A stretch of DNA of 64,000 bases from NCBI RefSeq assembly GCF_008642355.1, contig NZ_CP029193.1, forward strand, positions 3,744,001 through 3,808,000, given 5' to 3'. Positions 18,580 through 37,045 of the stretch are shown here, in pieces (position 1 is the first letter of the stretch; the number at the start of each line of letters is the position of its first letter). Under the pieces are notes generated by a model. That model was not told where the DNA came from. It saw only the letters and a list, made by a program, of their open reading frames with translations, and did not search any database. This DNA is from Streptomyces venezuelae. GTDB lineage: Bacteria; Actinomycetota; Actinomycetes; Streptomycetales; Streptomycetaceae. A program made the position numbers and the translations under genes.

Positions 18580-18623
18580 AGAGCCCCCTGTCGGATTCGA
18601 ACCGACGACCTACGCATTACAAG
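18580..18623. repeat. attL: left copy of the 44-bp attachment repeat
   Basis: Identical to 37046-37089. It runs from two bases beyond the tRNA 3' end to the anticodon loop of tRNA-Thr in the minus orientation. Beyond 18623 the sequence leaves tRNA homology, so this is the displaced tRNA fragment and not a working tRNA gene. Confidence 0.93.
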
Positions 18624-18738
18624 CTGTCCGGCCTTGATCCATCGTGGTCCGGGCGCGTCCCTGAGTGAGCCGAACTCGCAGGTCAAGGGCGTTGGTGGAC
18701 GCACAGGGACGAGTACGAACGATGCCGGATTCGGCGCC

Positions 18739-18762
18739 AACCGAGACTAGAACTGAGACTGG
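18739..18762 (+). repeat. Two 12-bp direct repeats inside the left end (candidate integrase arm sites)
   Basis: AACCGAGACTAG (18739-18750) and AACTGAGACTGG (18751-18762) are tandem copies of the same 12-mer that occurs twice at 36932-36955 near the other end. After excision they would flank the attP core in the same orientation, as arm-type integrase or Xis sites do. Confidence 0.55.
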
Positions 18763-18797
18763 CCCAGCTACCAAACCACGCTGGGGCTGGGGCCCAA

Positions 18798-19040
18798 CTA
18801 CGGCTTGGGCTTGGGCAGCTCGGTGACGAAGGTTCCGATGCCGGGTTGCATCTGTGCGAGCCCGGCCTCTCGAAGCTCGGTGAGTACCCGGCGGGCGGTC
18901 ATCTGCGCGATGCCAAACTCACCCTGGATCGCGAGGACACCCGGCAGCTGACTGCCCGGCGGGTACTCGCCATCGGCGATCCGCTGCTCAAAGACCGCGT
19001 AGACCTGCTTCCACCGCGGGATGTCCGGCTTCCAATCCAT
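18798..19040 (-). CDS. Small GntR-type winged-helix protein
   Basis: An 80-residue protein consisting only of a GntR winged helix: YAVFEQRIADGEYPPGSQLP, then EFGIAQMTARRVLTELREAG and GIGTFVTELP. It lacks any ligand-binding (UTRA/FCD) domain. It sits next to attL, apart from the larger GntR at 24746. AICEs and Streptomyces plasmids use GntR proteins (KorSA, Kor) to silence transfer genes, so this may be a second regulator or an anti-repressor. The ATG at 19040 is the only reasonable start. The family is clear, the role inferred. Confidence 0.75.
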   Translation of the reverse strand: MDWKPDIPRWKQVYAVFEQRIADGEYPPGSQLPGVLAIQGEFGIAQMTARRVLTELREAGLAQMQPGIGTFVTELPKPKP

Positions 19041-19195
19041 GATCCGAAGCTAGGCAGGACAGGCTTGGTCAGCGAGACGAGTAAGCCTGCATGGCCTAGC
19101 TACCCTAGCTAGCTAGTACTACGCTGCGTGCACGCACAGCACCCCTGCGGCCGCGCGAACGACCCAGGGGCGTGGACGACTGACGTGGAGTCGAC

Positions 19196-19414
19196 GTGAA
19201 CGAGGCTAAGCAGAATCCGAACACTCCGAACAGCTCAAACACGGCCAAGATGGAGCCCGGCAGCTACGGCTACTGCTCGTGGCACCGCGGCTATAGCGCA
19301 GGCATCCGCGTCATCAACGTGGTGGAACAGGGCTCGGGCCCAGGGGGCGTGGACTTCGCGTGTCTCCCCTGCCGCGAGGAGCACGACCTAGTCCCGTTCG
19401 CCGACCGGCCGTGA
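19196..19414 (+). CDS. Small Cys/His-containing AICE protein, unknown
   Basis: A 72-residue protein with a polar Asn/Ser-rich N-terminus and a compact C-terminal part carrying C-x2-H near residue 28 (YCSWHRGYSAG) and C-x2-C near 58 (ACLPCREEHD), a possible small zinc site. The GTG start is preceded by GTGGAG. Its stop overlaps the next gene as GTGA, so both are made together. I do not recognise a function. Confidence 0.6.
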   Translation: MNEAKQNPNTPNSSNTAKMEPGSYGYCSWHRGYSAGIRVINVVEQGSGPGGVDFACLPCREEHDLVPFADRP

Positions 19415-19629
19415 ACGAGATGGGGCGCCCGAAGCCCCCGCGCGCCAAGACGCTCAACGGCTGGCAGTACCTCGGCTGGCACTGCTGCTGGTGCGACGCC
19501 CCGATCTGGCAGGGCGCAAGGTCCGCCGGCCGCGCCGAAGGACGCGAGGGTGCGCACGACTTGTCCATCGAGGTGTACGAGTGCGGCCCGCACTGCCCGA
19601 AACGCCCGGCCATGACCAAACCATCGTAG
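19411..19629 (+). CDS. Small Cys-rich AICE protein, coupled to the preceding gene
   Basis: A 72-residue protein starting at GTG 19411 inside the GTGA overlap. It contains HCCWCDAPIWQG near 26-37 and ECGPHCPKR near 57-65, which together could bind one zinc ion. Length and overlap support it as a real gene; no family is recognised. It is the last gene before the sharp fall in GC that precedes the ABC-3C-like cassette. Confidence 0.6.
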   Translation: MNEMGRPKPPRAKTLNGWQYLGWHCCWCDAPIWQGARSAGRAEGREGAHDLSIEVYECGPHCPKRPAMTKPS

Positions 19630-20084
19630 TCAGCCCCCAATGCAACGCGGTGCGAGTCGCCGGTTTGAAAATGCGGGGAGCTCTGCACCAAGCGGCAGTT
19701 TCCACTTAGCCGACAGACCAACAGCTTGGGGAGTTCGGGCGTTCTAGGGCAGTCAGCATCTGGGCTGTGAGGGAGTGTCTTGACGGTCCTCACGCTCCCT
19801 GATTCGTTGCCAGCTGCTCCCCGTCGGCTCTCCGTCCAGCCCGGCACGGGTCCGGCACGGTGCTGAGCGGCAAGACCACCGACTCTTGTCGCATCCCGGG
19901 ACCTGGTCTTACACAGGGCGCGCGGCACCACTGCGGCTATGCCTTCTGGCCCACGGCTAAGGGGCGAGCGCGACCACTCGATGCGCTCGCCCGGTTACAA
20001 GCACCTTGGCCATCGGGCCGCGACCCTGTCACGCACTGTTCCACAGCCACTACCATCCGGCTCGATCATCGATACCCTGGATCA
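19630..20084. other. 455-bp intergenic region upstream of the ABC-3C-like cassette
   Basis: No convincing gene. One frame is open from 19860 and joins the effector gene, but its codons are irregular and the peptide has no family features, so it is treated as leader. Base composition changes here from about 70% GC to the 50-55% of the cassette. A promoter for the cassette should lie in the last 200 bp; TTGACG (19779-19784) is a possible -35 without a clear -10. Confidence 0.5.
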
Positions 20085-21056
20085 ATGGGCCAGCGGGCGA
20101 GATCCCAGTCTGTGGCCTTGACGGCACCACTGAAGTGGAGGGCCCACTTGCGCTCGGCTAGGAATTGGGATGGCGACGAATGGGAAGAATGGTGCATTCT
20201 TCTCATTCGTAGGCGATATGGCGCTGATCAAGTGCAGGTCGTTCCGGCCCGCCACCGAGGCGATCTCGGAATTGAGGCCTTCACGTACGACGGCTGCGCT
20301 TTTCAATGCTATGCGGCGCAAGAACCTATTCCAGTGAAGGAGCGCTACGAGAAACAACGCGACAAGCTCACTACAGATTTGGCTAAGCTGGAAGACCGTC
20401 GAGAGAAGTTCGTGACTCTTCTCGGTAATGTAAGAATCAAGCGATACATGTTCATGGTCCCTTACTTTGATTCTCACGAACTTGTTCAGCATGCGTCGAC
20501 GAAGGCTGCAGAGTATCGAGGTAAGAGTCTCCCTCACTTGGATCCCGGGTTCCAGATCGTCGTAGTGGACGAAGATGCCTACGCGGATATTCGTGAGCAG
20601 GTGCTGCTCAATCCGCAACCTTTGGTGGAGGTTCACGAGCAGACACAAGAAGACGTGGCCGCCTGGATCAGAGAGAATTCGCACTCATTCACCACAGCCG
20701 AAAGGAAACTTCAGGGACTAATCCAAGACGACCCACGTAGGTTGCAGGCTGTTGAGAGCCTTGTCATGCAATACATTAAGGGGGAGAATGCTCTAGCAGA
20801 CATGCGGAGAAAATTCCCCGACAATTGGGAGAGGGCTACTCGTTACCGAAACCACAAAGAGCAGCTCCTTATTTTTGAGTACCCATCGACCGATATTCAA
20901 TTTAGCAGCCTTTCCAAAATTGCCAAGGAAATTGAGCACGAGCTTAAAGAAGATGCGCCAGCGCTAGACAATCGCCTCCGTAGCGCTATCGCTTGGGCCT
21001 CAATTGCCGACTGGATTATGCGCTGCCCTCTCGACTTTCCAACGGTGGCCTCATAA
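20085..21056 (+). CDS. PD-(D/E)XK nuclease-like first component of an ABC-3C-type system
   Basis: A 323-residue protein in a low-GC cassette. Residues about 20-90 look like a divergent restriction-endonuclease fold: an acidic first helix (WDGDEWEEWCILLIRRRYG), then RGDLGIEAF with Asp near 60, then GCAFQCYAAQ with Gln near 74 and Tyr near 76 where many Mrr-type enzymes have QxK. The rest is helical, with ERYEKQRDKLTTDLAKLEDR and an acidic C-terminal half. The start at ATG 20085 is chosen because homology-like sequence begins just after it; GTG 20112 is also possible. Its stop overlaps the next start (TAATG). The nuclease role is inference. Confidence 0.72.
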   Translation: MGQRARSQSVALTAPLKWRAHLRSARNWDGDEWEEWCILLIRRRYGADQVQVVPARHRGDLGIEAFTYDGCAFQCYAAQEPIPVKERYEKQRDKLTTDLAKLEDRREKFVTLLGNVRIKRYMFMVPYFDSHELVQHASTKAAEYRGKSLPHLDPGFQIVVVDEDAYADIREQVLLNPQPLVEVHEQTQEDVAAWIRENSHSFTTAERKLQGLIQDDPRRLQAVESLVMQYIKGENALADMRRKFPDNWERATRYRNHKEQLLIFEYPSTDIQFSSLSKIAKEIEHELKEDAPALDNRLRSAIAWASIADWIMRCPLDFPTVAS

Positions 21057-21541
21057 TGCTTAATACTGACGAACTCGCAGACCTCTTCTCCAATACAAAC
21101 ACCCCCGTAACCTTTACTCGGCGCCCCGATCCGATTCCAGGAGATCTACGGCACGGATGGAGGCTCGCTGCACTCGTGCTCGTGTTAGACCGGTGTCACG
21201 CGAGCTCAGCGAATGTTGAACAGCTTCATTTGCTTGTTTGGGCTATGCGGTCGAGATCCACTCGAAATATGGTGCTGTCCTGGAAAAACGGAGAAAGAGC
21301 ACCTGACGAATTTGCGGTCAGGTACGATCCGGTACTGAGCCGAACGATCGCTATTGCTATTTCCAGTGGCTTGGTATTCCGCAAGCCGAGTCAAGCTATT
21401 TCTCTAACACCCGAGGGTAAGTCGCTAGCGCGGAATGTTTGGCGTCACGATGCGGTGCTGACTGAGGAGAAAGACTTTCTGAGGGCGTTCCCTGGGAAGA
21501 TTTCGCAAAAGTCTATCCGTCAACTCATGGACTGGAACTAA
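21056..21541 (+). CDS. Middle component of an ABC-3C-type system
   Basis: A 161-residue protein between the nuclease-like gene and the ATPase gene, overlapping the former by one base (TAATG) and separated from the latter by one base. It appears to be mostly helical with a winged-helix-like end (RTIAIAISSGLVFRKPSQAI, then LTPEGKSLARNVW), which fits the helical/wHTH 'middle component' of three-component ABC systems described by Aravind and colleagues. I cannot name the exact middle-component subfamily. It probably bridges effector and ATPase. Confidence 0.68.
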   Translation: MLNTDELADLFSNTNTPVTFTRRPDPIPGDLRHGWRLAALVLVLDRCHASSANVEQLHLLVWAMRSRSTRNMVLSWKNGERAPDEFAVRYDPVLSRTIAIAISSGLVFRKPSQAISLTPEGKSLARNVWRHDAVLTEEKDFLRAFPGKISQKSIRQLMDWN

Positions 21542-21542
21542 C

Positions 21543-23564
21543 ATGCTCAAGATCCGCAACCTGCAGCTGCGCGTCGTAACTGAAGGTCCCTTGTGTGGTG
21601 CGGATCTTCAATTCGTGAGCGGGCTAAACGTTCTAAGGGCCGACAACTCCAGCGGAAAATCGACTTGCATGCAGGCGGTCATCTACGCCTTGGGTCTAGA
21701 AGGAATGCTGAGTGCCCGACGTGACATTCCGCTGCCACACGCTATGACGGACTCTATTGAGGTAGATGGGCGCGATTTTTCTGTCCTCGAGTCGTGGGTA
21801 GCGTTGGAGGTGGAGAACTCTTCAGGGCATGTCATTACTGTTCGGCGTCATGTGAAGAGTGCTACCAAGCACATGACGCTAGTTGAGGAGTTCACTGGCC
21901 CCTGCTTGAGTGAAGGATTGCCCATGGAGAGGGGGACCGATTACTTCGTCCGCCGTCCTGGAGCTGCCATCAGGGACAGGGGATTTCACCATCGCTTGGC
22001 TGCTTTCCTGGGGTGGGAACTTCCTCAGGTTTCCCGCCTGGATGGTAGCGAGGGCCCACTGTACCTAGAGTGCCTCTTTCCATATTTCTTTGTAGAGCAG
22101 AAACATGGATGGTCCGGCATTCAGGCCCGCATCCCGACTCACTTCATGATTCGAGACGTGAGCCGTAGGGCCGCCGAGTTTATCTTGAACCTCGATGAGT
22201 ATTCCGCCGTGCTACGACGGCAACGACTAGAGTCTGCTGGATCTCAAATGGACAGCGAGTGGCGACAAGTCGTCGATCGGCTTGTTGGTACCACTAAGGG
22301 TGCTGCTGTGGTACTGCGCGGTGTGCCGCAGAGACCCGTACTGGACGCTGCTGCTGTAGCCATCGAGGCAGTCATTGCTTCGGATAGCAAATGGATCACA
22401 ATCGATGACGAGATTACTTTGCTACAGGCCCGTCTGGATGAGTTGGATGGCGTGGAGGTTCCCACAGTCGAGGAGAGCTCGCAGCAACTGGATTTCGAAC
22501 TATCACGCGCTCAGGAACAGCTAACTGTTATCGCCGCGAAGCTACGTGACGAGATCGAATCACTTACTGAGTCGAGCGCACGACGTGATGGACTAGAATT
22601 CCGGGTCGAAGCCCTTGAGGAGGACTTGCAAAGGCATAAGGATGCGGCTCTTTTGCGTCGGCTCGGTTCGGATCATGCCGCTGTCATTGGAGGAGAATCG
22701 ACATGCCCTACATGTCAGCAGGCGCTGCCGGATGGCTTCGATGTGACTCTGAACCCTATGTCACCAGACGAAAGCATCACGTACATCGAGCAAGAGCTTC
22801 GAACGTTCCGGGCTATGCATACGGACATGCAACGGGTAATCGAAAACCAGCAAGCAAAAGTGGCAGGTCTACGCGACAGAATGTCTCAGGTCCGTAGGGG
22901 AATTCGAGCCGTCAAGCAATCGCTCACCTCCCCCTCTTCGACGCCCTCTGTTGCGACTGTGGCTGAAAGAATCCGCCTGCAGGATCGGATCGAGGCATTG
23001 CGATCGGTGCAGGCTGAGATTCTCACTGCCAGTAACGACCTTCGCACGAGGGCAGTTGCGTGGTCGCATAACCGAGGCGCTCTGCGCGCTCTTGCTGAAC
23101 AAGGACAATCACCTCAAGATGCCGCGAAGATCGCGTTCTTGCAGAATTCTTTGCGGCAACAGCTCAGGAGTTATCACTTCAACTCGCTAGACGCTGAGAG
23201 CATTGAGATCTCGCCCGACACCTATCGCCCCATCCACGAAGGGTTTGACCTAGGATTCGACCTGTCGGCTAGCGATATGATCCGTGTGATCTGGGCCTAC
23301 CTCCTAGCATTTCTTGAGGCGGGCCTGAACTTCTCAACCAATCATGCTCGCTTGCTTATCTTTGATGAACCACGCCAACAAGAAACTAATAGGTTGAGTT
23401 TCTCCGCGCTTCTAGGTCGCGCCGCGAATGTGAACGGCAGCGAAGCGCAGATTATCTTCGCGACGAGCGAGGAGGCCGAAGCTCTTGCAGGAATGTTGCA
23501 GGGTAGGCCCCATCACCTAATTTCAAGCGCCTCTGGAGCGAAGCTGATTAAGCCTATCCAATAG
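21543..23564 (+). CDS. DUF3732-type Rad50/SMC-like ABC ATPase (ABC-3C sensor ATPase)
   Basis: A 673-residue ATPase. The Walker A motif ADNSSGKST is at residues 33-41. A long coiled-coil region (about 290-480) is interrupted by CPTC at 388-391, placed like the zinc hook of Rad50. The ABC signature lies in DLSASDMIRVIWAYLLAF near 574-590, and Walker B is LLIFDEP near 604-610. DUF3732 ATPases are typical of three-component conflict systems, in which the ATPase senses a nucleic-acid state and releases an effector. It is the last gene of the low-GC cassette and follows the middle component by one base. A restriction-like or abortive anti-phage role is inferred. Confidence 0.82.
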   Translation: MLKIRNLQLRVVTEGPLCGADLQFVSGLNVLRADNSSGKSTCMQAVIYALGLEGMLSARRDIPLPHAMTDSIEVDGRDFSVLESWVALEVENSSGHVITVRRHVKSATKHMTLVEEFTGPCLSEGLPMERGTDYFVRRPGAAIRDRGFHHRLAAFLGWELPQVSRLDGSEGPLYLECLFPYFFVEQKHGWSGIQARIPTHFMIRDVSRRAAEFILNLDEYSAVLRRQRLESAGSQMDSEWRQVVDRLVGTTKGAAVVLRGVPQRPVLDAAAVAIEAVIASDSKWITIDDEITLLQARLDELDGVEVPTVEESSQQLDFELSRAQEQLTVIAAKLRDEIESLTESSARRDGLEFRVEALEEDLQRHKDAALLRRLGSDHAAVIGGESTCPTCQQALPDGFDVTLNPMSPDESITYIEQELRTFRAMHTDMQRVIENQQAKVAGLRDRMSQVRRGIRAVKQSLTSPSSTPSVATVAERIRLQDRIEALRSVQAEILTASNDLRTRAVAWSHNRGALRALAEQGQSPQDAAKIAFLQNSLRQQLRSYHFNSLDAESIEISPDTYRPIHEGFDLGFDLSASDMIRVIWAYLLAFLEAGLNFSTNHARLLIFDEPRQQETNRLSFSALLGRAANVNGSEAQIIFATSEEAEALAGMLQGRPHHLISSASGAKLIKPIQ

Positions 23565-23996
23565 GCCAGTGAAGCGACCGGAGCCTAAAGCTGATTTAAG
23601 GTGAGGATCGTGCCTTCAACTTTCAGCCTGCCGGAACTCTATGGGCCTATGCGTTAAAGAATGAAGTTGGAGCCCTGAATAACCTAGAGGACTGCCCCAG
23701 AATGGCCGTCTTGAAGCCGTGGAGTCGACGCCCCAGCCGGGATGAACGCCCACTCTGACTTCAGATGGCCACTTGTCGTGCGTGTGGCACGGGCGCTGGG
23801 CGGAGACAGTGGCGCAGGCCGTGCGGGAGCCGGGCCGCTCGCGGTGAGCGGAGTGAGCAGCCTTGACCGGGTAGGAAAATTTTTGCGTCCTGACACAGAA
23901 ACGGCCTCATAGTCCACGCGATGCCACGTACGCCTCTATCAGACCGGCCTGCAAAAGCCCCCGGGCGTAGCACCCGAGGGCTTTTATTTGCAGCGT
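23565..23996. other. 432-bp intergenic region after the cassette
   Basis: No supported gene. GC content returns to host level around 23690, which marks the right edge of the low-GC segment. Short frames here lack ribosome binding sites and family features. The region ends with a hairpin at 23953-23985, listed separately. Confidence 0.6.
23953..23985. terminator. Hairpin between the glycosyltransferase gene and the ABC-3C-like cassette
   Basis: AAAAGCCC (23953-23960) pairs with GGGCTTTT (23978-23985), extended inwards by CGGG/CCCG with one mismatch. T-rich sequence follows on both strands, so it can stop leftward transcription of the glycosyltransferase operon and rightward read-through from the cassette. 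Confidence 0.75.
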
Positions 23997-24749
23997 TCAG
24001 CCTGTGGATAGGTACTTATGGGCAAGGGCTGCCGCATGCTTGCCAATAGCTCCCATTCGGGCTTCCCACTCAGCACCGTCACGGTGGTCCGGGTGGGCGG
24101 TCGTCTGGTCTGGGTGCTTGCGGTAGTGGAGTCCCGCCTCGCCGATGAACCAGCCGTCGGCCATCACGTCGAGGGCCAGCAACAGGGCAGTGTCTTCCGA
24201 TGCGGGCAGGGCCATCCACCCCCCGGCTTCAGCGAGCAGGCTTTCCCGGATGCAGAGCGAGGCCGGATGCACCGCGGGCCGGTGCGTGGTGGACCAGTAG
24301 GCGTACAGCTCCCCCCGGGTGAGCTGGCCGGGGTCCGGGTCGCCGAGTGTGTAGTGCACCAGTGAGCCGTCCGGCATGAGGTCGAGCACCTTGCACACCG
24401 TCCAGCCGACGGACGGGTGTGCCTCCATGACCTCGAGGTCACGGGCGAGGGCGCCGGCGGGCAGGACATCGTCAGCGTCCAGGACCTTCACCAGCTCGCC
24501 CTTGCTGCGGCCCCACGCCATGGTCCGGGCCACTCCAGGGCCGCCGCGCCTGTTGTCACTGACCGCGACGCGCGCGTCTTCGCGGATGTCGGCAGGCACA
24601 TCGACCGCCTTGCCGCCGTCGACCTGGATCAGCCATTCCCAGTCCCAGCCACTGGGCAGCTCCTGCGAACGGAGCGAGGCGAAGGCCTCGGGCAGGAAGG
24701 GCAACGCCGCGTCGTGGACCGGCGTCACGACCGACATGATCCGGGTCAT
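23997..24749 (-). CDS. Family 2 glycosyltransferase, AICE cargo
   Basis: A 250-residue GT-A fold enzyme: TRIMSVVTPVHDAALPFLPE at the start, WEWLIQVDGGKAVDVP, then the nucleotide-sugar motif ELVKVLDADDVLPAGALARD with the DxD-like DAD near 96-98. The C-terminal part carries PASEDTALLLALDVMADGWF, the ED motif of GT2 enzymes. There is no membrane segment. The ATG at 24749 overlaps the GntR stop (ATGA), so it is co-expressed with and probably repressed by that GntR. The sugar and acceptor are unknown; surface modification that affects mating or phage adsorption is only a guess. Confidence 0.82.
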   Translation of the reverse strand: MTRIMSVVTPVHDAALPFLPEAFASLRSQELPSGWDWEWLIQVDGGKAVDVPADIREDARVAVSDNRRGGPGVARTMAWGRSKGELVKVLDADDVLPAGALARDLEVMEAHPSVGWTVCKVLDLMPDGSLVHYTLGDPDPGQLTRGELYAYWSTTHRPAVHPASLCIRESLLAEAGGWMALPASEDTALLLALDVMADGWFIGEAGLHYRKHPDQTTAHPDHRDGAEWEARMGAIGKHAAALAHKYLSTG

Positions 24750-25558
24750 GGGGTCCACCTCTCCAGCGGCACGGAGTACCACAGCTCTGTGCGCTCGCCA
24801 GGGAGCACCACGTGCGAGTACTCGACGACGTCGCCCTCGGTCGAGATGCTGGTCTTGTCGAGGAGGAGTACCGCGCTACCGGTCGGGATGCCCAGCTTCC
24901 GGGCCTCGGCCTGGGTGGCAAGCCGGGTCCTGATGCCGTCGTCGATACGGTCGATCTCGATGCCCACGGTGCTCAGCTGATGGTGCGTCCCCCCGGGCCA
25001 CGGTTCCTTGGCACTGTCCAGCAGGTCAGGGTTTCGGGCCGCAACCTCGTGGACGAGGTAGGAGTCGATCAGCGATAGCGCGGTCGGATCGTCCCCGGCA
25101 CTGTGCCAGTACTGCCGGTGCAGCATCAGGGTGCCCACCTCCACACCAAACCGTTCAGCGAGATCTGCATCGGCTGGGATGGCCCTGAACGTCGCATGCG
25201 TCGCGATCTCGTCGTGCTCCAGGCCCGTGTCCTTGTCGACCACGCCACTGGTGCGGCGCACCTCATCGGGCCGTAGCGCCAGCTTCTTTTCCCAGACGTA
25301 TCGCTCCTGGTGGCGGCGGATCTGGTGCGGCGGGCGCTGACGGACCTTCGTCCCGTGCCCGCGGACCATGCTGACCAGACCCTCGGCCTCCAGCGCCTTG
25401 TAGGCCGCGAGGACGGTGGTCTTTGATCCCTTGCCTTGCGCGACCAGGTCCCGAATCTGCGGGAGCTGATCTCCAGGCCGGTATCCGGATGCGCCGGCCG
25501 CGATGTCCCGCGCGATCTGGTCCGCGAGTCCACGCCATTGCGGCGTTTTGGGTGCCAT
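24746..25558 (-). CDS. GntR/UTRA-family repressor (KorSA-like position)
   Basis: A 270-residue regulator: N-terminal GntR winged helix (WRGLADQIARDIAAGASGYR, PGDQLPQIRDLVAQGKGSKT, then TVLAAYKALEAEGLVSMVRG) and a UTRA-type ligand-binding domain from about residue 105 (TFRAIPADADLAERFGVEVG, LIDSYLVHEVAARNPDLLDS, VLPGERTELWYSVPL). Four CCCGGG-centred sites lie just upstream at 25597-25684, indicating autoregulation. In Streptomyces elements such proteins keep transfer and spread genes off; here the divergent target would be the 26011-29477 genes. The ligand is unknown. Confidence 0.82.
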   Translation of the reverse strand: MAPKTPQWRGLADQIARDIAAGASGYRPGDQLPQIRDLVAQGKGSKTTVLAAYKALEAEGLVSMVRGHGTKVRQRPPHQIRRHQERYVWEKKLALRPDEVRRTSGVVDKDTGLEHDEIATHATFRAIPADADLAERFGVEVGTLMLHRQYWHSAGDDPTALSLIDSYLVHEVAARNPDLLDSAKEPWPGGTHHQLSTVGIEIDRIDDGIRTRLATQAEARKLGIPTGSAVLLLDKTSISTEGDVVEYSHVVLPGERTELWYSVPLERWTP

Positions 25559-25596
25559 ACAGAACCCCTCCTCATCGACCAGGCCAGTGAACCACA

Positions 25597-25684
25597 GTCC
25601 CGGGATTGACGGCTATCCCGGGACTGTTGACAGTCCCGGGACTTAGTGCCAGTCTCTTGCCATGCCCAGCGGCAGTCCCGGGAC
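25597..25684. promoter_or_regulatory. Four CCCGGG-centred operator sites upstream of gntR
   Basis: Sites containing TCCCGGGA are centred at 25601.5, 25619.5, 25637.5 and 25680.5. The first three are exactly 18 bp apart; the third is a perfect 12-bp palindrome, AGTCCCGGGACT. They fill the region before the gntR start (25558) and face the divergent genes, so cooperative binding by the GntR protein is likely. TTGACG and TTGACA lie between the sites. Confidence 0.7.
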
Positions 25685-25913
25685 AGCGTTCCGGTGGTTG
25701 CCGCATGAGCAACGTGGGCGGGATAGCTCGTTTCTGCGTGAAGATCCCTGCCGCCCACCGCTTGACCTGCACGATCGCACGACCAGGAGCCCCGCATCGG
25801 ACGGGGGGAGGCGACCCGGCGCCTTGTCATTGACCGGAGGGCTTAGACCGAAAGGTCACGTCTCCATACGCCTACGACGGGAGCTCTGGCTCCCGAAGGA
25901 GACATGTACTACC

Positions 25914-25962
25914 GCCCCGGAATCCGGCCGCGAGGGCGCGGGATCGAATCCCGCCCGGGGCA
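25914..25962 (+). other. tRNA-like element: acceptor and T-arm without D or anticodon arms
   Basis: GCCCCGG (25914-25920) pairs fully with CCGGGGC (25955-25961), followed by A. Just inside the 3' strand is a complete T-arm: GCGGG, loop ATCGAAT, CCCGC (25938-25954). Only 17 nt separate the 5' acceptor strand from the T-arm, so there is no anticodon arm. It may be a decayed tRNA, an old attachment site or a structured leader. An overlapping 36-codon frame (25904-26014) ends in an ATGA overlap with the next gene. Confidence 0.45.
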
Positions 25963-26010
25963 CTGCGGTCGTCCGACCGTGTGCACGTCCCTCTCACCAA
26001 GGAGCTATCC

Positions 26011-26166
26011 ATGAGTGACAACAACGGGGCCGTCTTCGACTTCGGCGGCAACGTCACGTTCGGCGGGGACATCGTTCTTGGGGACCAGATCGGCGTCTCC
26101 GGCGGTGTCGTCTACGGAGACGTCGTCATGGGCGGCGGTGCGAGCACCGACGCCGACGACGAGTAG
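26011..26166 (+). CDS. Short Gly-rich repeat peptide, beta-solenoid-like
   Basis: A 51-residue protein. Its core repeats a glycine pair or Gly-Asp followed by a short hydrophobic strand about every six residues: GGNVTF, GGDIVL, GDQIGV, GGVVY, GDVVM. This spacing resembles one or two turns of a left- or right-handed beta-helix such as in bactofilins, and could also form amyloid. It starts at ATG 26011 after AAGGAG and is the first gene divergent from gntR. No function is known; the family is not recognised. Confidence 0.65.
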   Translation: MSDNNGAVFDFGGNVTFGGDIVLGDQIGVSGGVVYGDVVMGGGASTDADDE

Positions 26167-26251
26167 TACCCACCCGCCCCGCTCGGGGCATCGCGGCCGA
26201 CTCTCTCGGCCGTGCCGCGCGCTTCCCGCGCGGCTCCCACAACAACGGCGC

Positions 26252-26281
26252 GAGCCCCCGGAGGTGCAACTCCGGGGGCTC
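26252..26281 (+). terminator. Hairpin after the Gly-rich peptide gene
   Basis: A perfect 12-bp stem, GAGCCCCCGGAG (26252-26263) and CTCCGGGGGCTC (26270-26281), with loop GTGCAA and TGTTG after it. It would end the short 26011 transcript or attenuate entry into the DUF6284 operon. Confidence 0.75.
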
Positions 26282-26320
26282 TGTTGGGGCCGTTGCCACC
26301 TGCTAGGGAGAACACGACCC

Positions 26321-26584
26321 ATGAAGCACATCGTCACTGTTCACGAGGCTGTTACCGCGTTCGAGCCGTGGCACGAGCCCTCGGCCACGGAGCTGGACGC
26401 GATCGAGCGGGAGATGCCGCTGATCGAGGCGGGCGTCGAGCTGCTGGACGCGCAGATCATCACCCTCGACCGCGCCCCGAACGAGGTCGACGCGCGGCGC
26501 ATCCGGCGGGCCCACCGCAAGGTGCTCGCCGCCCGCCGCGCTCTCGCCAACGCCACCACCGTCACCGCGGGGGTGGGTGCGTGA
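26321..26584 (+). CDS. DUF6284-family small protein
   Basis: An 87-residue, mostly helical protein: HIVTVHEAVTAFEPWHEPSA, then TELDAIEREMPLIEAGVELL, then RRIRRAHRKVLAARRALANA. It matches the pattern I remember for DUF6284, a family seen mainly on Streptomyces integrative elements next to transfer genes. No function is known. The stop overlaps the next start as GTGA, beginning a chain of four coupled genes (26321-28915). Confidence 0.7.
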   Translation: MKHIVTVHEAVTAFEPWHEPSATELDAIEREMPLIEAGVELLDAQIITLDRAPNEVDARRIRRAHRKVLAARRALANATTVTAGVGA

Positions 26585-27030
26585 GTGTCACGGACTTGAA
26601 CCTGTCGGCGGCACACGCCGAGGTGAAGGCGGAAATCGCGCGTACCGACTCCAAGACCAGTCTCCTCCTGGCGTTCGTCGGCGCTCTGCTCGCCGGTACG
26701 TGGACGGTCGCCAAGGACACGGCCTTGACGGTGCCTACCTGCACGGTGGGTGGTCTGGGCATGGCGCTGCTGCTCGCCGCCGCGGGCCTGTTGCTGTCGT
26801 CGGTCCGCCCGAACCTGAGCGTTCGGCACGGCTTTCCGCTGTGGGCAACGCTGAGCGCCGAGGAGATCACCGCCGAACTCGCGGAAGACCAGCGGGCGCG
26901 GGACATCGCGGGTCTGGCCCGGATCGCGGTCCGCAAGTTCACCGCCCTCAAGCGGGCGGTCGACCTGACCCGCGCAGGCGGCGCCCTGCTCGTGCTCGTC
27001 GCACTCCTCCAGGCGGGAGGTGCGCTGTGA
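26581..27030 (+). CDS. Pycsar-effector-like (PycTM) membrane protein
   Basis: A 149-residue protein with the layout of the PycTM family: a first helix with EVKAEIARTDSKTSLLLAF, two adjacent membrane segments (about 27-45 and 55-78), a cytoplasmic helical stretch (EEITAELAEDQRARDIAGLA, then VRKFTALKRAVDLTRAG) and a last membrane segment at 135-149. PycTM proteins are membrane-damaging effectors of pyrimidine-cyclase (Pycsar) phage defence. No cyclase gene is recognisable in the element, so a defence role is uncertain and a spread/pore role in conjugation is equally possible. It is coupled on both sides by GTGA overlaps. Confidence 0.68.
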   Translation: MSVTDLNLSAAHAEVKAEIARTDSKTSLLLAFVGALLAGTWTVAKDTALTVPTCTVGGLGMALLLAAAGLLLSSVRPNLSVRHGFPLWATLSAEEITAELAEDQRARDIAGLARIAVRKFTALKRAVDLTRAGGALLVLVALLQAGGAL

Positions 27031-27884
27031 GGGGCAAGACGGTACTGCCCGCGGTCGCGATGACGGCCGTGTCCATGGTGCTCACCCTGGCCGTGGTCAT
27101 GATGTGGCTTGGGTCGGCCGTGCCGTGGCTGGTCGCTCTGGTCGTCGGTCTGGGGATCGACGGGGGCTGGCTGGCCACCCTGGCCTATGAGCGTCGCCTC
27201 GCTGCGCAGGGCGACCATAACCGCGTAGTGACCGCTATCGGCTGGTCCTTCGGCCTTCTGGCCTCCGGGGTCCTGGTCTCCCATGCGGCGACCGTCGAGG
27301 ACTCTGCCGGCGCATGGCTGGCGGTCGCGTGGCTCCCGATCGCTGCGAAGGCCCTTTGGCTGGTGCACGGGCTGTGGGAACGGACCGCGCTCACCACCCA
27401 CGCGCTGGACGCCATCCAAGGCATCCAGCAAGAGGCGCGTGACGAGGCGGCCGTGGCCCGTGCCCTGCTGCGTGCCGAAGCAGCCACGGAGGAGACGCGG
27501 CTGACGGCCGTGACGGCCGCCGGGGCACGCGTCGCCCGCGTCCAGGCCAAGACGGCCCACACCCTGTCCGGAGCCTGGGCAACGCTGGAAGCGGCCCGCA
27601 AGGGCGAAGGCACCGGCAAGGCTCTGACCAGCGTGACGGCACCCGTCACACCCGGCGTCACGGCCCGCTGGGAACTGCCCGTGTGGGGGCCGAGCGAACA
27701 GGTCCCCGCACTCGATGCGGCCGCGCCCGCGCTCACGGACGCCGCACTCGACCAGCTGGTCGACGCGATCCGTACGAGCGAGGACCCCGCCCTGTCCTAC
27801 CGCGACATGGCCACCCGCTTCCGTGCCTCCGGGCACTCCGCTTCCGAGGTCCGGCTGCGGGCCGCCTGGAAACGGGTGGCGTGA
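27027..27884 (+). CDS. AICE membrane protein of spread/Sec31-annotated type
   Basis: A 285-residue protein with about four N-terminal membrane segments (residues 5-27, 32-50, 68-86, 96-112), then a long soluble tail with a helical Ala/Arg-rich part (ARALLRAEAATEETRLTAVT) and a C-terminal domain ending YRDMATRFRASGHSASEVRL, which resembles a small DNA- or peptide-binding helix pair. Streptomyces element homologues are usually called Spd-like or 'Sec31'. It is coupled to the preceding gene (GTGA) and to the methyltransferase gene (TGATG). Intramycelial spread is inferred from context. Confidence 0.65.
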   Translation: MRGKTVLPAVAMTAVSMVLTLAVVMMWLGSAVPWLVALVVGLGIDGGWLATLAYERRLAAQGDHNRVVTAIGWSFGLLASGVLVSHAATVEDSAGAWLAVAWLPIAAKALWLVHGLWERTALTTHALDAIQGIQQEARDEAAVARALLRAEAATEETRLTAVTAAGARVARVQAKTAHTLSGAWATLEAARKGEGTGKALTSVTAPVTPGVTARWELPVWGPSEQVPALDAAAPALTDAALDQLVDAIRTSEDPALSYRDMATRFRASGHSASEVRLRAAWKRVA

Positions 27885-28915
27885 TGGGAGGCCTGCGGAT
27901 CGGGTCTCTGTGCACCGGTTACGGCGGTCTGGACATGGCCGTGCAGGCCGTGTTCGGCGGCGAGCTGGCGTGGGTGGCGGACAACGACCCCGGCGCGAGC
28001 CGCGTCCTGGCCCACCGCCATCCTGACGTGCCGAACCTCGGTGACATCACCACCACTGACTTCTCCCGAGTCGGGTCAGTCGATGTGGTCTGCGGCGGCT
28101 ATCCGTGCCAGCCATTCAGCTCCGCCGGCAAGAGGAAGGGAACCGCCGATGACCGGCACATCTGGCCCCACATCGCCCGTGCCCTTGGCGTTCTACGACC
28201 CCGCTACGCGGTCTTTGAAAACGTCGCAGGGCACCTTTCTCTCGGATTCGACACCGTCCTCGCTGACCTTGCCGCCCTCGGGTTCGATGCGCGCTGGTGC
28301 ACTCTTCGCGCATCTGACGTGGGCGCGGCTCACCAACGCAACCGACTCTTCGTCCTCGCATGGTCTGCCGACCCCGGCAGCCAGGGACTGGAAGGGCGGC
28401 GGTCAGCGCGGGCAGTTACCGACCGCCGTGGGCTCGCTGCTGCCGACCCCGTCGACCTCGGAGAACACCGGTCCCGGACACGCCGCGCAGGGCGGGATGA
28501 ACCTGCGGCACGTTGTCTCGCTGCTGCCCACCCCGCGCGCGTCGGCGAACGAGAACCGGCAGACCAAGCGGACCCCGTCGCAGGAAGCGGGCACCCACGG
28601 CAAGTGCCTGGCTGCGGAGATGGCCAACCTGCCGGCCGCAGCCCGATCGACTGGGGCGAGTACGGCTCGGCCATCACGCGCTGGGAAACGGCGCTCGGGC
28701 AGCGCGCCCCAGGACCAGTTGACGCTGTGGGACGCCTGAGCCCCGTCTTCGTCGAATGGCTCATGGGCCTGCCCGCCGGCCACGTCACCGACGTCCCCAG
28801 CCTGTCCCGCTCCGCACAGCTCAAAGCGCTCGGCAACGGCGTGGTTCCCCACCAGGCCGTGGCCGCGCTCCGCTTCCTTGCGCCCGCCGCTCTTCCGGCC
28901 CGTGATGCCGCCTGA
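27884..28915 (+). CDS. C5 DNA cytosine methyltransferase with an apparently frame-swapped target-recognition region
   Basis: A 343-residue frame with intact catalytic motifs: motif I GSLCTGYGGLDMA (residues 7-19), motif IV GGYPCQPFSSAG with catalytic Cys near 75, motif VI ENV near 112, motif VIII AHQRNRLFVLAW near 149-160, and motif X ALGNGVVPHQAV near 316. Between motif VIII and the WGEYGSAITRWE segment, about 28360-28640, the codon-position GC pattern switches to the next frame, which encodes LPTP repeats typical of related methyltransferases (LPTPAARDWKGGG, NLRHVVSLLPTPRASANENR). So the recognition domain is either altered by two compensating shifts or decayed. It may protect the element from host restriction. 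Confidence 0.8.
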   Translation: MGGLRIGSLCTGYGGLDMAVQAVFGGELAWVADNDPGASRVLAHRHPDVPNLGDITTTDFSRVGSVDVVCGGYPCQPFSSAGKRKGTADDRHIWPHIARALGVLRPRYAVFENVAGHLSLGFDTVLADLAALGFDARWCTLRASDVGAAHQRNRLFVLAWSADPGSQGLEGRRSARAVTDRRGLAAADPVDLGEHRSRTRRAGRDEPAARCLAAAHPARVGEREPADQADPVAGSGHPRQVPGCGDGQPAGRSPIDWGEYGSAITRWETALGQRAPGPVDAVGRLSPVFVEWLMGLPAGHVTDVPSLSRSAQLKALGNGVVPHQAVAALRFLAPAALPARDAA

Positions 28916-28980
28916 GCGGCACGGACGCTCCCGCACGTCTACCCCCTGACCAGGCACGTTTCCTCACGAGGAGAGCCCCT

Positions 28981-29307
28981 GTGGGTACCCCTGACACCAA
29001 CCAGATTGACCGCGAGATCCGCACCACCCAGCGCAAGCTCGAAGCCGCCGCCAAGCGCGAGATGTGGGCGTTGAACGGACCCGAGCGCCGCGCCCTGGTG
29101 TCCGCGATGGGCAGCGTGACCGCCAAGGTCGTGCGGCACAAGAGCACCACGCGCCCGGAAGAGAAGGCCGCGGCGACGTGGGAGTCGGCGCAGACGCGGC
29201 TTCAGGCGGAGATCAACGCTCTTCAGGTCGAGCGGGACGAGGCCGTGAGGCGGGCCGCCACCGACAAGGCCGCCAAGAAGGCCGCGAAGTCCTCGGGGTG
29301 GTGGTGA
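28981..29307 (+). CDS. Small coiled-coil AICE protein, unknown
   Basis: A 108-residue charged protein, nearly all helix: NQIDREIRTTQRKLEAAAKR, a middle part GPERRALVSAMGSVTAKVVR, then WESAQTRLQAEINALQVERD and a Lys/Ala-rich end. The ending SGWW is echoed by SFWW in the next gene. The GTG start follows GAGGAG. It overlaps the next gene as GTGA. No family is recognised. Confidence 0.6.
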   Translation: MGTPDTNQIDREIRTTQRKLEAAAKREMWALNGPERRALVSAMGSVTAKVVRHKSTTRPEEKAAATWESAQTRLQAEINALQVERDEAVRRAATDKAAKKAAKSSGWW

Positions 29308-29477
29308 GCGTGGCCCCCAAGCCGACCCCCGGCGGTGAGTGTCCGCAGTGCTGGGCGCACGCCCACGACAAGCGTATCCACAAGGCACTCAAGGGCAGGC
29401 AGTGCGAGCCCTGCCTTGACCACCTGCACAACGGCTGCCCGGTCCTCGTACCCAAGAAGCCGTCCTTCTGGTGGTGA
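29304..29477 (+). CDS. Small zinc-ribbon-like AICE protein
   Basis: A 57-residue protein with two CxxC pairs, GGECPQCWAH near 11-17 and RQCEPCLDH near 35-41, spaced like a zinc ribbon, plus several His. It starts at GTG 29304 within the overlap with the coiled-coil gene. It may bind zinc and nucleic acid; the role is unknown. It lies 135 bp before traB. Confidence 0.6.
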   Translation: MSVAPKPTPGGECPQCWAHAHDKRIHKALKGRQCEPCLDHLHNGCPVLVPKKPSFWW

Positions 29478-29612
29478 CCGTCCCCACCTCACGCGTCGTG
29501 TGACGCGTGCCCGCACCTTCCGGCCGCTCGGGTGGCCGCCCCGGTTGGGGGGCGGCCACCCGGTCCCCCGCGTCTTCTCGCCCCGTCCGGGGCAGTCAGG
29601 AGCCTTTCCGCC

Positions 29613-31739
29613 ATGGACGGCAACGTCGTTCCCCTGCACAAAACCCCGCCCGCGCCCGTCTCGGAACCGGGCCCGACCCTGACCGTGGTCCCCGAGCCCT
29701 CCCCCACGCCGGCGGTGCCGCTGTGGGTGCGCTCCGGGCGTGCCATACAGCGGGCGGTCACCCACGAACGCACCCGTGAGGTCGGCCGGTTGGCCGTGCG
29801 GCACAGCATGTACGTGGTCGGTGGGACCCGCATCGTGACGCGTCGCGCCTGGGACGGACGCACCGGCGCCCGCTACGAACGCCTCCTTCGCGCCGCCGAA
29901 GCCCAGGGCAACTACGAGGTAGCCGCCGAGTGGGAGGAGCGGCTGCAGCGCTTCCGCGAAGCCCGCCACCGCCGCCGCATGGACCTCCTCAAGTCCCCCG
30001 TCGACGTAGCCAAAGGCCTGGCGGTCGGCACCGGGGCGGGCATCGGCGCGCTCGTCGGGCTCGGGGTGGTGCTGGCCATCGCGAACGAGGACGTCACCGA
30101 TGTGCTCACGCCGTTGATGGCAGTCGTCGAGTTCATCCGCCTGCTCATCACCATCGTGTCCGTCGTGTGGGGCCCAGCCCTGCGGGTGGGCCCGTTGCTG
30201 GCGCTGCTCGCCCTGTGGAGCGTGGGCCGTCATTCGCAGGCCGCGCCGAACTGGGCGCTTCCGGCGAACGTCCAGTCGGGCGAGGGCGAGCCGATCACCC
30301 CGTCCATCGTGGTCAAGGCACTGCGCGATCTGGGGGTGCCCGCGCTGCGGAACGCCATCAAGGAGATGGGCGACGCGGGGGCGGCGATGCTGGGGCCGAT
30401 CCGGATCGCGGGATGCGGCGTCGAGGTCGACGTGACGCTCCCGTCCGGGGTGTCCACGGTCGAGGTTCAGCAGCGGCGCCGCAAGCTCGCCGAGAACTTG
30501 ACCCGGCACGAGCACGAGGTGTTCATCACCATCCCCGAAGCCGCCCGCACGGTACGGCTGTGGGTGGCCGACTCCGGTGCGCTGGACGAACCGATCGGCC
30601 CATCCCCGCTGGTCACCGACGAGACCATGACCGCCGACTACGCCAAGGGCCGCGCCCCCTGGGGGCAGGACCTGCGCGGGGACGCCGCCGCGCTCAGCCT
30701 CTACCAACGCCACCTGCTCATCACGGGCCTGTCCAACCAGGGCAAGACCGTCGCGCTGCGCTCCCTCGCGCTGTGGTTGGCGCTGGACAGGTCGGTGCAG
30801 TTCCTCATGGGTGATCTCAAGGGCGTCGGCGACTGGGCCATGTTCGACGGCCTGGCCTCCACCCTCATCCAGGGGCCGACCGACGAGCACGTCATCGAGG
30901 TCACGGAGATGGTCGAGGGTGCGGTCGAGGAGATGAACCGCCGTATCCAGGCCCCGCCCGGAACCACCTACCCGCCCTTGATCGTGCTCGTCGACGAGGC
31001 GCAGGTGGCGTTCATGTGCCCGGCCAAGGACGACCAGAAGCGTCCCTACGGCGGCTCGAAGGCCAACTCCCGCTACTTCATGGCCGTACGCAAAATCCAC
31101 AACCAGGGCCGCGCCGTGAACGTCCTGATGTGGCAGGGCACCCAGGACCCGACCAACGAGAACCTGCCCAAACTGGTCCGCGAGGGCGCCCACACCCGCG
31201 CCTCCCTCGCCCTGGGCACCGAGTCGCAAGCCCGCATGGCGCTCGGCGACAAAGCCGTTGACGGCGGCGCCGCCCCGAACCTGCTCCGTCCGGGCCTGGA
31301 CCGGGGAACCCTGGTCGTCGCCTCCGACGGCATCACCATCCCGGCCGGACAGTCGTCCATCACGGTGCGCACGCACTACATCGACGACGACGCAGCCAAG
31401 GCCATCACCGAGCGGGCCAAGGCCCTGCGCGATGGGGTGACCACCCTGCACGCCATCGACCGGAGCGAGCAGCGCGACCCGCTCACGGACATCCTCTCCG
31501 TGCTCGGGGACGCACCCCGTGTACTCACCCAAACCGTCCTTCAGCGGCTCGCCGCCCTGAGCCAGGACGCGTACGGAAGCTGGTCGTTCGGTGACCTCAA
31601 GCGCGTCCTGGAGAACGCTGGCGCTGACCCGTACAAGTCCGACGGGCGCATGGTCGTCGGACGCGACCGGGTCGCCCGTGCCCTCGCAAACCGCCCCGAC
31701 GACGAGGATTCGGATGCTTCCATTTCGCACGTCGACTAG
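29613..31739 (+). CDS. traB: TraB/FtsK-type conjugative DNA translocase
   Basis: A 708-residue protein. The N-terminal part (about 110-210) includes membrane segments near residues 140-160 and 180-210. The motor domain has Walker A GLSNQGKTVALR near 372-383 and Walker B LIVLVDEAQ near 456-464, with a C-terminal winged-helix-like region from about 620 (LQRLAALSQDAYGSWSFGDL, then KRVLENAG). In Streptomyces, TraB alone moves double-stranded DNA between hyphae, recognising 8-bp repeats (TRS) in the clt locus. The ATG at 29613 follows CAGGAG. A repeat array begins 22 bp after the stop. Confidence 0.88.
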   Translation: MDGNVVPLHKTPPAPVSEPGPTLTVVPEPSPTPAVPLWVRSGRAIQRAVTHERTREVGRLAVRHSMYVVGGTRIVTRRAWDGRTGARYERLLRAAEAQGNYEVAAEWEERLQRFREARHRRRMDLLKSPVDVAKGLAVGTGAGIGALVGLGVVLAIANEDVTDVLTPLMAVVEFIRLLITIVSVVWGPALRVGPLLALLALWSVGRHSQAAPNWALPANVQSGEGEPITPSIVVKALRDLGVPALRNAIKEMGDAGAAMLGPIRIAGCGVEVDVTLPSGVSTVEVQQRRRKLAENLTRHEHEVFITIPEAARTVRLWVADSGALDEPIGPSPLVTDETMTADYAKGRAPWGQDLRGDAAALSLYQRHLLITGLSNQGKTVALRSLALWLALDRSVQFLMGDLKGVGDWAMFDGLASTLIQGPTDEHVIEVTEMVEGAVEEMNRRIQAPPGTTYPPLIVLVDEAQVAFMCPAKDDQKRPYGGSKANSRYFMAVRKIHNQGRAVNVLMWQGTQDPTNENLPKLVREGAHTRASLALGTESQARMALGDKAVDGGAAPNLLRPGLDRGTLVVASDGITIPAGQSSITVRTHYIDDDAAKAITERAKALRDGVTTLHAIDRSEQRDPLTDILSVLGDAPRVLTQTVLQRLAALSQDAYGSWSFGDLKRVLENAGADPYKSDGRMVVGRDRVARALANRPDDEDSDASISHVD

Positions 31740-31761
31740 AGGGAGCCGAGCCGCTTCGGGC

Positions 31762-31919
31762 CAGGGAGGCAGGGAGAACTCCCTGACCGCCTCCCTGACC
31801 CACCTCCCTGGCCCTGACCTGCACGAATGATCGTTCAGGGAGGCAGGGAGGCACTGCAGGCCAACCCCCCGAAACCCCCTCCACGGCATCCCCGGAAGGG
31901 GGTGTCTCTGCCTCCCTGA
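31762..31919. repeat. CTCCCTGA 8-mer array downstream of traB (candidate clt)
   Basis: Eight copies of CTCCCTG(A/G/C) or its complement occur in 158 bp: reverse orientation at about 31762, 31770, 31835 and 31843, forward at 31779, 31791, 31804 and 31912. Several are in closely spaced pairs 8-13 bp apart. An 8-mer array next to traB is what a TraB recognition locus (clt/TRS) looks like; alternative roles are operator or attenuation of the downstream gene. Confidence 0.65.
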
Positions 31920-31941
31920 ACCGTCGATGAAGGGATTCCGC

Positions 31942-32418
31942 ATGTACAAGAAGAGCACCCCGCAGGCGGGCGCACCGGGCGCCGGTCTGAGCGAGGAGCA
32001 GGCTGCAACTGAGGCACGCCGGATCATCGACGACGCCTACCGCCCCACCGCCTACCGCGATCCCTCCCCCGTGCCCGCCCACGGCGACGCCCCGGCCATC
32101 TCTCAGCCCGGACGCCCCCCGATGAGCCAGGGCGCCACCGACGCGAGCGTGCTCCTACTCGCCGGGGGCACCACCACCGTCATGGTCGGTGGCACCGCCG
32201 GAGTACTGATGTACGTCTCGCAGTTCGCCGACCCGATCGTCTGCGGCCTCGTCTTCGGCGCCCCCAGCTTCCTCGTGCTCGCCCTCGCCCGCCTCGCCCG
32301 ACGTGCCAAGCCCGCCCCGGACATCCACCACCACTACGCGGGCCCGGTGCACCAGGACCGGCGCACCGTCCACAGCCGCACATCCGGCGTGTGGGCCAAG
32401 ACCAGCAACCAGCCGTAA
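31942..32418 (+). CDS. Small membrane protein of the AICE spread/replication region
   Basis: A 158-residue protein: a polar N-terminal half (GAGLSEEQAATEARRIIDDA, then Pro-rich), two membrane segments at about residues 70-93 and 100-118, and a basic His-rich tail (DIHHHYAGPVHQDRRTVHSR). ATG 31942 is preferred over 31927 because AAGGGA lies 8 bp before it. SpdB2-like proteins with two or more membrane helices commonly follow traB. No motif gives a definite function. Confidence 0.62.
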   Translation: MYKKSTPQAGAPGAGLSEEQAATEARRIIDDAYRPTAYRDPSPVPAHGDAPAISQPGRPPMSQGATDASVLLLAGGTTTVMVGGTAGVLMYVSQFADPIVCGLVFGAPSFLVLALARLARRAKPAPDIHHHYAGPVHQDRRTVHSRTSGVWAKTSNQP

Positions 32419-32421
32419 CGC

Positions 32422-32463
32422 CAAGGGCGGCCCCCGTCTCGCCAAAGTCCGGGGCCGCCCTTG
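32422..32463 (+). terminator. Terminator hairpin before the primase gene
   Basis: CAAGGGCGGCCCC (32422-32434) is the exact complement of GGGGCCGCCCTTG (32451-32463), with a 16-nt loop. It begins three bases after the stop of the preceding gene and is followed by TCC-rich sequence. Confidence 0.8.
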
Positions 32464-32501
32464 TCCATCCGTCCTCTACAGACCTGATGGAGGTCTCCAG
32501 C

Positions 32502-33359: not shown

Positions 33360-33360
33360 C

Positions 33361-34833: not shown

Positions 34834-34863
34834 CCGGCGGCGCACCGCCCCACCGGCACACAA

Positions 34864-34900
34864 GCAAGAGGAGCACCCCGCCGCGGCGTGCTCCTCTTGC
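34864..34900 (+). terminator. Terminator after the rep gene
   Basis: A perfect 13-bp stem: GCAAGAGGAGCAC (34864-34876) and GTGCTCCTCTTGC (34888-34900), loop of 11 nt. It lies 31 bp after the rep stop. Confidence 0.85.
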
Positions 34901-35015
34901 TGTTCGGCGGCACCGCCGCCCGCATCGGACGCGCCGCGAAGCGGCTCCTTCTTCACGTCCTGAGCCGCTCACACCACCACAGACACGCCCCCCTTTTTTC
35001 CTAAGTGGGAAACGC

Positions 35016-35224
35016 TGCGTCACCTGCGTCACGAGCACCCCGAGAACCCCCGCTGAGCTGCGCATACGGACGTGACGCAGACGGCCGATCTCTGCGTCAC
35101 GTCGCGTCACCTGCGTCACGCGTGACAGACAGCCTGCGTCACCCGTGACGCACCCCGAACGCCTTGCGTCACGCGAAATCCGCAGGCCGGAAGCCACGCA
35201 TGACGCAGGTGACGCGGTGACGCA
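35016..35224. repeat. TGCGTCAC 8-mer array between rep and xis (candidate origin or clt)
   Basis: Nine exact copies of TGCGTCAC or its complement GTGACGCA occur in 209 bp: forward at 35016, 35025, 35093, 35112, 35135 and 35165; reverse at 35072, 35145 and 35217. Three near-copies are at 35103, 35200 and 35209. Several are phased 8-9 bp apart, and forward copies dominate the left while reverse copies dominate the right. The 479-bp gap 34834-35312 holds no gene. Such arrays serve as replication iterons or TraB recognition sites. Confidence 0.75.
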
Positions 35225-35312
35225 GGAATCCAAGCCTCGGACACTCGCAGGCCGCAGAGCTCAATCCCACCACCCCCGCAGGCACGGACGAACTGCCCAG
35301 GAGGCACCCCGG

Positions 35313-35516: not shown

Positions 35517-35603
35517 TCCGCGACCCGCACATCCCTGAGACCCGCACATCCCCTGAGGCGCCCTGAGCACACAGCTCGGGGCGCCTCCCGTATGGAGGCA
35601 CGC

Positions 35604-37001: not shown

Positions 37002-37008
37002 ACAACAA

Positions 37009-37040: not shown

Positions 37041-37045
37041 CGACA

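Follow-up and report, generated by a model that had tools for sequence, protein, structure and literature searches.

Lamassu, an established form of bacterial immunity, is believed to detect foreign DNA and then to set a nuclease free. In the available parts of the literature, the Lamassu superfamily takes in the ABC-three-component (ABC-3C) systems and DdmABC (PMC10586767), and a type II Lamassu operon containing LmuC has been assayed against phages (PMC8565338). By their titles, Protein Data Bank (PDB) entries 9hqu, 9hr5, 9uxh, 9uxi, 9nxx and 9ny5 represent Lamassu type II/DdmABC complexes of the same A-C-B gene trio that we describe here, in a 64,000-nucleotide stretch of Streptomyces venezuelae (GCF_008642355.1, contig NZ_CP029193.1, positions 3,744,001-3,808,000; hereafter the window, to which feature coordinates refer). 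The three genes, at 20085-23564, form the lmuA-lmuC-lmuB set of a type II Lamassu (LmuACB) system. They very probably constitute a defence operon of the ABC-3C kind, which would act by nuclease release and which travels near attL, as exchangeable cargo, on an actinomycete integrative and conjugative element (AICE) integrated at a tRNA-Thr gene. What we show directly is the order of the genes, their matches to known families, their predicted folds and conserved motifs, their co-occurrence and their mobile context. A preliminary description of the window had considered this combination of genes untested biochemically; because ABC-3C falls within Lamassu, and a type II operon has been phage-tested according to the available part of PMC8565338, the class so named is not an untested one, and Lamassu complexes have been solved, to judge from the PDB titles.

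A type II Lamassu operon

All three proteins are matched by PADLOC models: the product of lmuA (20085-21056, plus strand; 323 amino acids) by LmuA PDLC03852 (6.6e-24, 83.5 bits), with structure alignments in agreement; that of the middle-component gene lmuC (21056-21541, plus strand; 161 amino acids) by LmuC PDLC03871 (7.7e-15, 53.3 bits); and that of lmuB (21543-23564, plus strand; 673 amino acids), an SMC/Rad50-like ABC ATPase, by LmuB PDLC03863 over residues 1-648 (1.3e-101, 339 bits). These matches uphold the earlier proposal of an ABC-three-component conflict system; its components are an effector, a middle component and an SMC/Rad50-like ATPase. The tight coupling of the genes that had been noted also agrees with the open reading frame (ORF) coordinates: the ATG of lmuC uses the last A of the lmuA TAA, so that stop and start share one base (TAATG), and a single base separates the lmuC TAA from lmuB. 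The start of lmuA is uncertain: homology sets in at about residues 24-33, and there is an in-frame GTG upstream, at 19860. The features of type II Lamassu are present, namely an SMC/Rad50-like LmuB, an LmuA with an N-terminal enzymatic effector and a C-terminal docking/oligomerisation domain, and a conserved operon. The likeness to type II Lamassu and DdmABC extends to the C-terminal fold of LmuA, a winged-helix LmuC and a Rad50-like LmuB with a zinc hook.

With ABC-3C systems the operon shares the combination of effector, middle component and ABC ATPase, but its LmuC and LmuA differ in having no Pfam match to middle-component (MC) or C-terminal domain (CTD) families at E ≤ 1. We take Pfam to contain ABC-3C family sets of both kinds, of which MC5 is the one confirmed by name; a search of the genome with MC5 (PF20291) gave no match. 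No MC or CTD family appeared at E ≤ 1 when 19 LmuC members were compared with Pfam (12 families listed) or in the corresponding list of 21 families for 21 LmuA members, and neither the LmuC nor the LmuA of the window matched any Pfam model at that threshold. The check suggested earlier, a comparison of the middle protein with ABC-3C middle-component families, therefore gave no Pfam match at E ≤ 1. The identity of the protein as the 161-residue LmuC between A and B is given by PDLC03871 and by its predicted winged-helix fold, which aligns to solved LmuC chains (9uxh_D and 9ny5_C) over 134 residues, most of its length. Sequence and profile searches of LmuC against solved chains returned no Lamassu row and mostly winged helices of the DtxR/MarR type, among others.

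In LmuB, the Walker A motif ADNSSGKST (residues 33-41; 21639-21665), the CPTC zinc-hook motif (residues 388-391; 22704-22715) and the Walker B motif LLIFDE with an intact glutamate (residues 604-609; 23352-23369), all on the plus strand, are as first described, but the ABC signature is degenerate, reading SASD rather than SGGQ (residues 575-578; 23265-23276, plus strand). Across an alignment of 21 LmuB sequences, window included, G38, K39, CPTC, S577, D578, D608 and E609 are invariant, S40, S575 and A576 are shared by 20 and T41 by 19; in a second alignment CPTC and D608-E609 are invariant in 23/23 rows. The available part of PMC10586767 states that LmuB generally carries glutamine in place of the Walker B glutamate, a general but non-defining trait that the present LmuB lacks.

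The ATPase had been assigned to DUF3732, which we reject: PF12532 finds nothing at E ≤ 1 in the protein or in the whole genome. Against Pfam, LmuB gave a sub-threshold AAA_23 row (26.2 bits, cut-off 27) and weaker rows at chance level. No NCBIfam model scored above its cut-off, the best being the archaeal SMC-related ASRP (34.7 bits, cut-off 300), followed by SMC at 21.6 bits and Rad50 at 19.2 bits. The presumed chromosomal SMC, a separate 1192-residue frame at 5.95 Mb, reaches 30 bits against the LmuB model. A housekeeping Rad50/SbcC identity, which would have undermined the original proposal, is likewise rejected, with 339 bits for the LmuB model and at most 34.7 for the SMC-type models of NCBIfam. 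Among solved chains, a single-sequence search with LmuB found nothing at E ≤ 0.1; the 18 rows of a profile search included Rad50/SMC N-termini and coiled coils.

A less usual putative active site in LmuA

The preliminary description had called the first protein PD-(D/E)XK-like, and structure alignment of the predicted model places this fold in its N-terminal half (approximately residues 18-178). The C-terminal half (approximately residues 178-319) has solved LmuA chains as its best alignments, marking it as the Lamassu LmuA domain. Sequence comparison with solved chains was unrevealing by either route, with one row at E 1.4 from a single-sequence search and seven rows of unrelated-looking proteins (E 0.22-0.96) from a profile search.

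Conservation points to a putative active site running from E64 to Q74-C75-Y76 (20274-20312, plus strand). In an alignment of 23 sequences (the window sequence, 21 relatives and the shortened L030 protein), position 64 is acidic throughout (Glu in 16, Asp in 7), Q74, C75, Y76 and D98 are invariant, and D60 is conserved in 22. The canonical (E/Q)xK motif is absent, since a tyrosine, Y76, occupies the lysine position in all 23. K94, conserved in 22 of the 23 (L019 has Glu), lies with D98 (20364-20378, plus strand) on the helix that follows the Q74-bearing strand. We propose K94 as a candidate for the residue that takes over the role of the missing QxK lysine.

Relatives and co-occurrence

LmuA relatives are patchily spread. 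They were found in 7/293 genomes of the order and, by profile, in at least 3/394 genomes of the class (own genome included in both), at one locus in the named genome collection (Microbispora, 67%) and in 23 of 72,556 plasmid records. LmuB searches gave 24 plasmid records and at least 5/394 class genomes, own included and two of them marginal, and no match in 50,697 phage records. We examined 24 other loci (the Microbispora locus, eight from genomes and 15 of the 23 from plasmids) and found the A-C-B order on one strand in 23 of them, spread over five phyla (Actinomycetota, Pseudomonadota, Cyanobacteriota, Bacillota and Gemmatimonadota). The trio thus occurs together well beyond the window, a point on which the preliminary proposal had been made to depend. 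Two of the 23 are damaged, lmuC being split by an IS5-type element in L012 and lmuB being split in L020. The sole exception, L030 (L030:6140-6946), has a shortened lmuA with no lmuC or lmuB nearby; its genome, of the same genus, contains a distant match to the LmuB model elsewhere (92.7 bits). On an Agrobacterium plasmid (L013:1-10909), a related operon has TniQ/TniB-type transposition genes and a gene of the AbiEii type as neighbours. Over 20 loci, the three proteins agree in their matrices of pairwise identity (Spearman 0.72, 0.59 and 0.75; 0/2000 permutations each), as expected for genes that travel together.

The module has a G+C content of 0.540, lower than the 0.688 of the remaining element and the 0.711 of the remaining window. 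This low value had been read as a sign of mobile cargo. The difference itself is real, but the module is below its flanks (up to 3 kb per side) in 22/22 loci, window included and L012, L020 and L030 left out, and low G+C therefore characterises the module as such and does not specially point to a recent arrival in this genome.

The damaged relatives L012, L020 and L030, together with the missing QxK lysine and the statement in the available part of PMC9513070 that AICE cargo is commonly pseudogenised, raise the question of whether the present operon has itself decayed or lost its activity and persists by hitch-hiking. We consider this improbable, as all three frames are open and the Walker, hook and QCY motifs are intact and common to relatives over several phyla. 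The operon is genuine and probably active, ordinary in kind, less usual in its nuclease active site and telling in its mobile context.

The carrier element

The operon resides on an 18.5-kb element (18580-37089) bounded by perfect 44-bp att repeats. The right-hand copy, attR (37046-37089), lies inside a tRNA-Thr(TGT) gene (37047-37121, minus strand), and attL (18580-18623) is an identical copy of the 3′ region of that gene. Next to attR are genes for a tyrosine integrase (35592-37001, plus strand; PF00589, 55.6 bits) and an excisionase-type helix-turn-helix protein (35145-35516, plus strand; HTH_17, and TIGR01764 at 54.7 bits, cut-off 28.8), preceded at 29532-31739 (plus strand) by an FtsK/SpoIIIE-type DNA translocase (PF01580, 29.1 bits, cut-off 24). 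The translocase may be a TraB-like transfer protein; it scores 20 bits against NF041214 (plasmid_TraB), which has a cut-off of 800. Att repeats at a tRNA gene, integrase, excisionase and FtsK-type protein together indicate a tRNA-integrated, conjugative-type element, in keeping with the earlier suggestion of carriage on an AICE.

By description, the element resembles two published groups of actinomycete tRNA-Thr AICEs, those with pSE211-type integrases and family 13 (available part of PMC9513070), in its integrase, tRNA-Thr site, FtsK/TraB-type protein and variable cargo. Unlike them, it has no replication gene that the RepSA model recognises. The candidate, a replication initiator by position only, is a conserved 620-residue protein (32971-34833, plus strand) that is matched neither by Pfam or NCBIfam families nor by the RepSA model. 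It has 76-89% identical relatives in 9/20 of the sister elements considered below and is perhaps an undescribed AICE replication protein.

Among 11 sister sites (L052-L062), two have the same left-flank gene on the same strand, separated from the tRNA site by 0.7 kb in L053 and by 3.5 kb in L052. In the window the distance is 18.5 kb, and the shorter distances fit insertion of the element. L057 contains a related element, and at the remaining eight sites the left neighbours differ or the gene is inverted.

Between attL and lmuA, on the minus strand, an 80-residue GntR-type DNA-binding protein is encoded at 18798-19040 and might be a regulator of the cargo. Beyond lmuB lies a gene for a GntR/UTRA regulator (24746-25558, minus strand). 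A hairpin spotted by eye at 23953-23985, between lmuB and the convergent next gene, may be a terminator; the surrounding segment (23945-23995) folds at -24 kcal/mol with a z of -2.67, and the hairpin is absent from the output of a consensus terminator scan. The consensus promoter and terminator scans were uninformative, with counts close to those of shuffled sequence (3 versus 1.8 and 4 versus 3.5).

The attL-proximal slot in sister elements

Integrase relatives at E ≤ 1e-100 occur in 51/392 genomes of the genus, own included. As sisters we took 20 of these hits (L093-L112), by score where contig room allowed and regardless of cargo, with one higher-scoring hit (G695) left out, and added L057, found by its site. 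Att repeats of at least 43 bp were identified in 17/20 sisters, L057 and the window (19/22 in all). L057 has a core close to that of the window, its integrase being 81% and its FtsK protein 77% identical. None of the 21 sister stretches contains a match to LmuA, LmuB or LmuC. Their genes beside attL are varied and often low in G+C across L093-L112, and we scanned 32 ORFs, chosen by eye for length and low G+C within about 6 kb of attL in 16/18 att-bounded sisters, with PADLOC; L096 and L103, whose slots appeared nearly empty, were left out.

With a clear match defined by one or more genes scoring above 190 bits, 8/19 att-bounded elements, own included, have one, a count that shows repeated presence and not enrichment. 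Where the window has Lamassu (339 bits), L057 (1273-18598) has ThsA-Macro (272 bits) with a TIR protein (193 bits), a Thoeris-like pair, and L097 has type IV restriction (1122 bits) with a Shosta-like ShosA (221 bits; ShosT 39). mREase_II is present in L100, L101 and L111 (601-609 bits), PDC-M02A/B in L101 and L107 (242-471 bits) and SduA of Shedu in L108 (299 bits). Matches elsewhere were weak (in bits: L112 66 and L099 52 (mad2), L098 35, L094 29, L102 26, L104 22, L105 20 and L109 19), and the L093 slot ORFs gave none.

These sisters bear on a further alternative, that the operon is a housekeeping or element-specific module for DNA repair or maintenance, which would process the ends of element DNA during replication or transfer. 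LmuB is a relative of SMC and Rad50, the public annotation of two relatives contains a double-strand break repair term, and LmuA occurs in 23 plasmid records, all of which would suit such a role. L057 and the other sisters lack any Lmu match (with integrase and FtsK retained in L057), and the operon is therefore not needed for element life. Given also the specific LmuA, LmuB and LmuC matches, the patchy spread through the order (7/293 genomes) and a G+C content unlike that of the element core, we regard a repair or maintenance role as highly improbable and favour a defence operon carried as cargo.

Proposed mechanism and significance

How such an operon might act can be outlined from described Lamassu systems, for which PDB titles record LmuA as a tetramer on DNA (9hr5) and a state of nuclease sequestration (9hqu), and for which the available portions of two papers describe effectors activated by oligomerisation upon sensing (PMC12799240) and list sensing of DNA ends and hairpins (PMC12904381). 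The present proteins have the needed parts, in the hook and ATPase motifs of LmuB, a winged-helix LmuC, and the C-terminal and nuclease folds of LmuA. From this analogy we infer complex formation, trigger, oligomerisation, DNA cutting and protection. Two LmuB molecules joined via the CPTC zinc hook would serve as the DNA sensor, with winged-helix LmuC seated on LmuB and helping to keep LmuA inactive. If LmuB then met DNA of a phage or plasmid at an end or a hairpin, LmuA would be released and would oligomerise through its C-terminal domain. The PD-(D/E)XK domains may then cut host and invader DNA alike, causing the infected cell to stop or die.

Whom this response would chiefly benefit is a separate question. 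Action on competing elements, as first suggested, is plausible, and the operon could be an exclusion module that primarily serves its carrier by killing cells that a rival plasmid or a related element has entered, the anti-phage effect being secondary. Consistent with this are the location on a mobile element, the occurrence of LmuA in 23 and LmuB in 24 plasmid records, the differing contents of the tRNA-Thr site among genomes, and the action of Lamassu on plasmids besides phage reported in the available part of PMC10586767. Such a module is compatible with the defence operon that we favour, and we advance it tentatively, as the less likely emphasis. More speculatively, the tRNA-Thr AICE family could be a rotating immunity vehicle, in which a fixed integration and transfer core carries swapped attL-side defences (Lamassu, Thoeris-like, Shosta-like, Shedu, restriction and PDC-M02), here with a QCY/K94 relocated-lysine nuclease and possibly with exclusion of rival rolling-circle or conjugative elements from the same site, the carrier being spared; we doubt that all of these parts hold together. 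Phage-resistance cargo on AICEs, and differing elements at one site, are already published (available part of PMC9513070). A limited literature search on AICEs and defence found no title or abstract opening that describes a fixed defence slot.

In a survey of Streptomyces (PMC10482375, as far as its available text goes), Lamassu was often at chromosome ends, and the analysis of carriers was limited to plasmids and prophages. The present Lamassu contrasts with that picture in lying at approximately 3.76 Mb, near the middle of a single 8,018,484-base (8.02-Mb) contig, and on a conjugative-type element. For the question of lysine relocation in PD-(D/E)XK enzymes, the LmuA subgroup described here, which is widespread and has QCY in place of QxK without exception, is a compact test case. 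If the attL-side slot is real, it would help to explain how Lamassu-type systems move through the genus.

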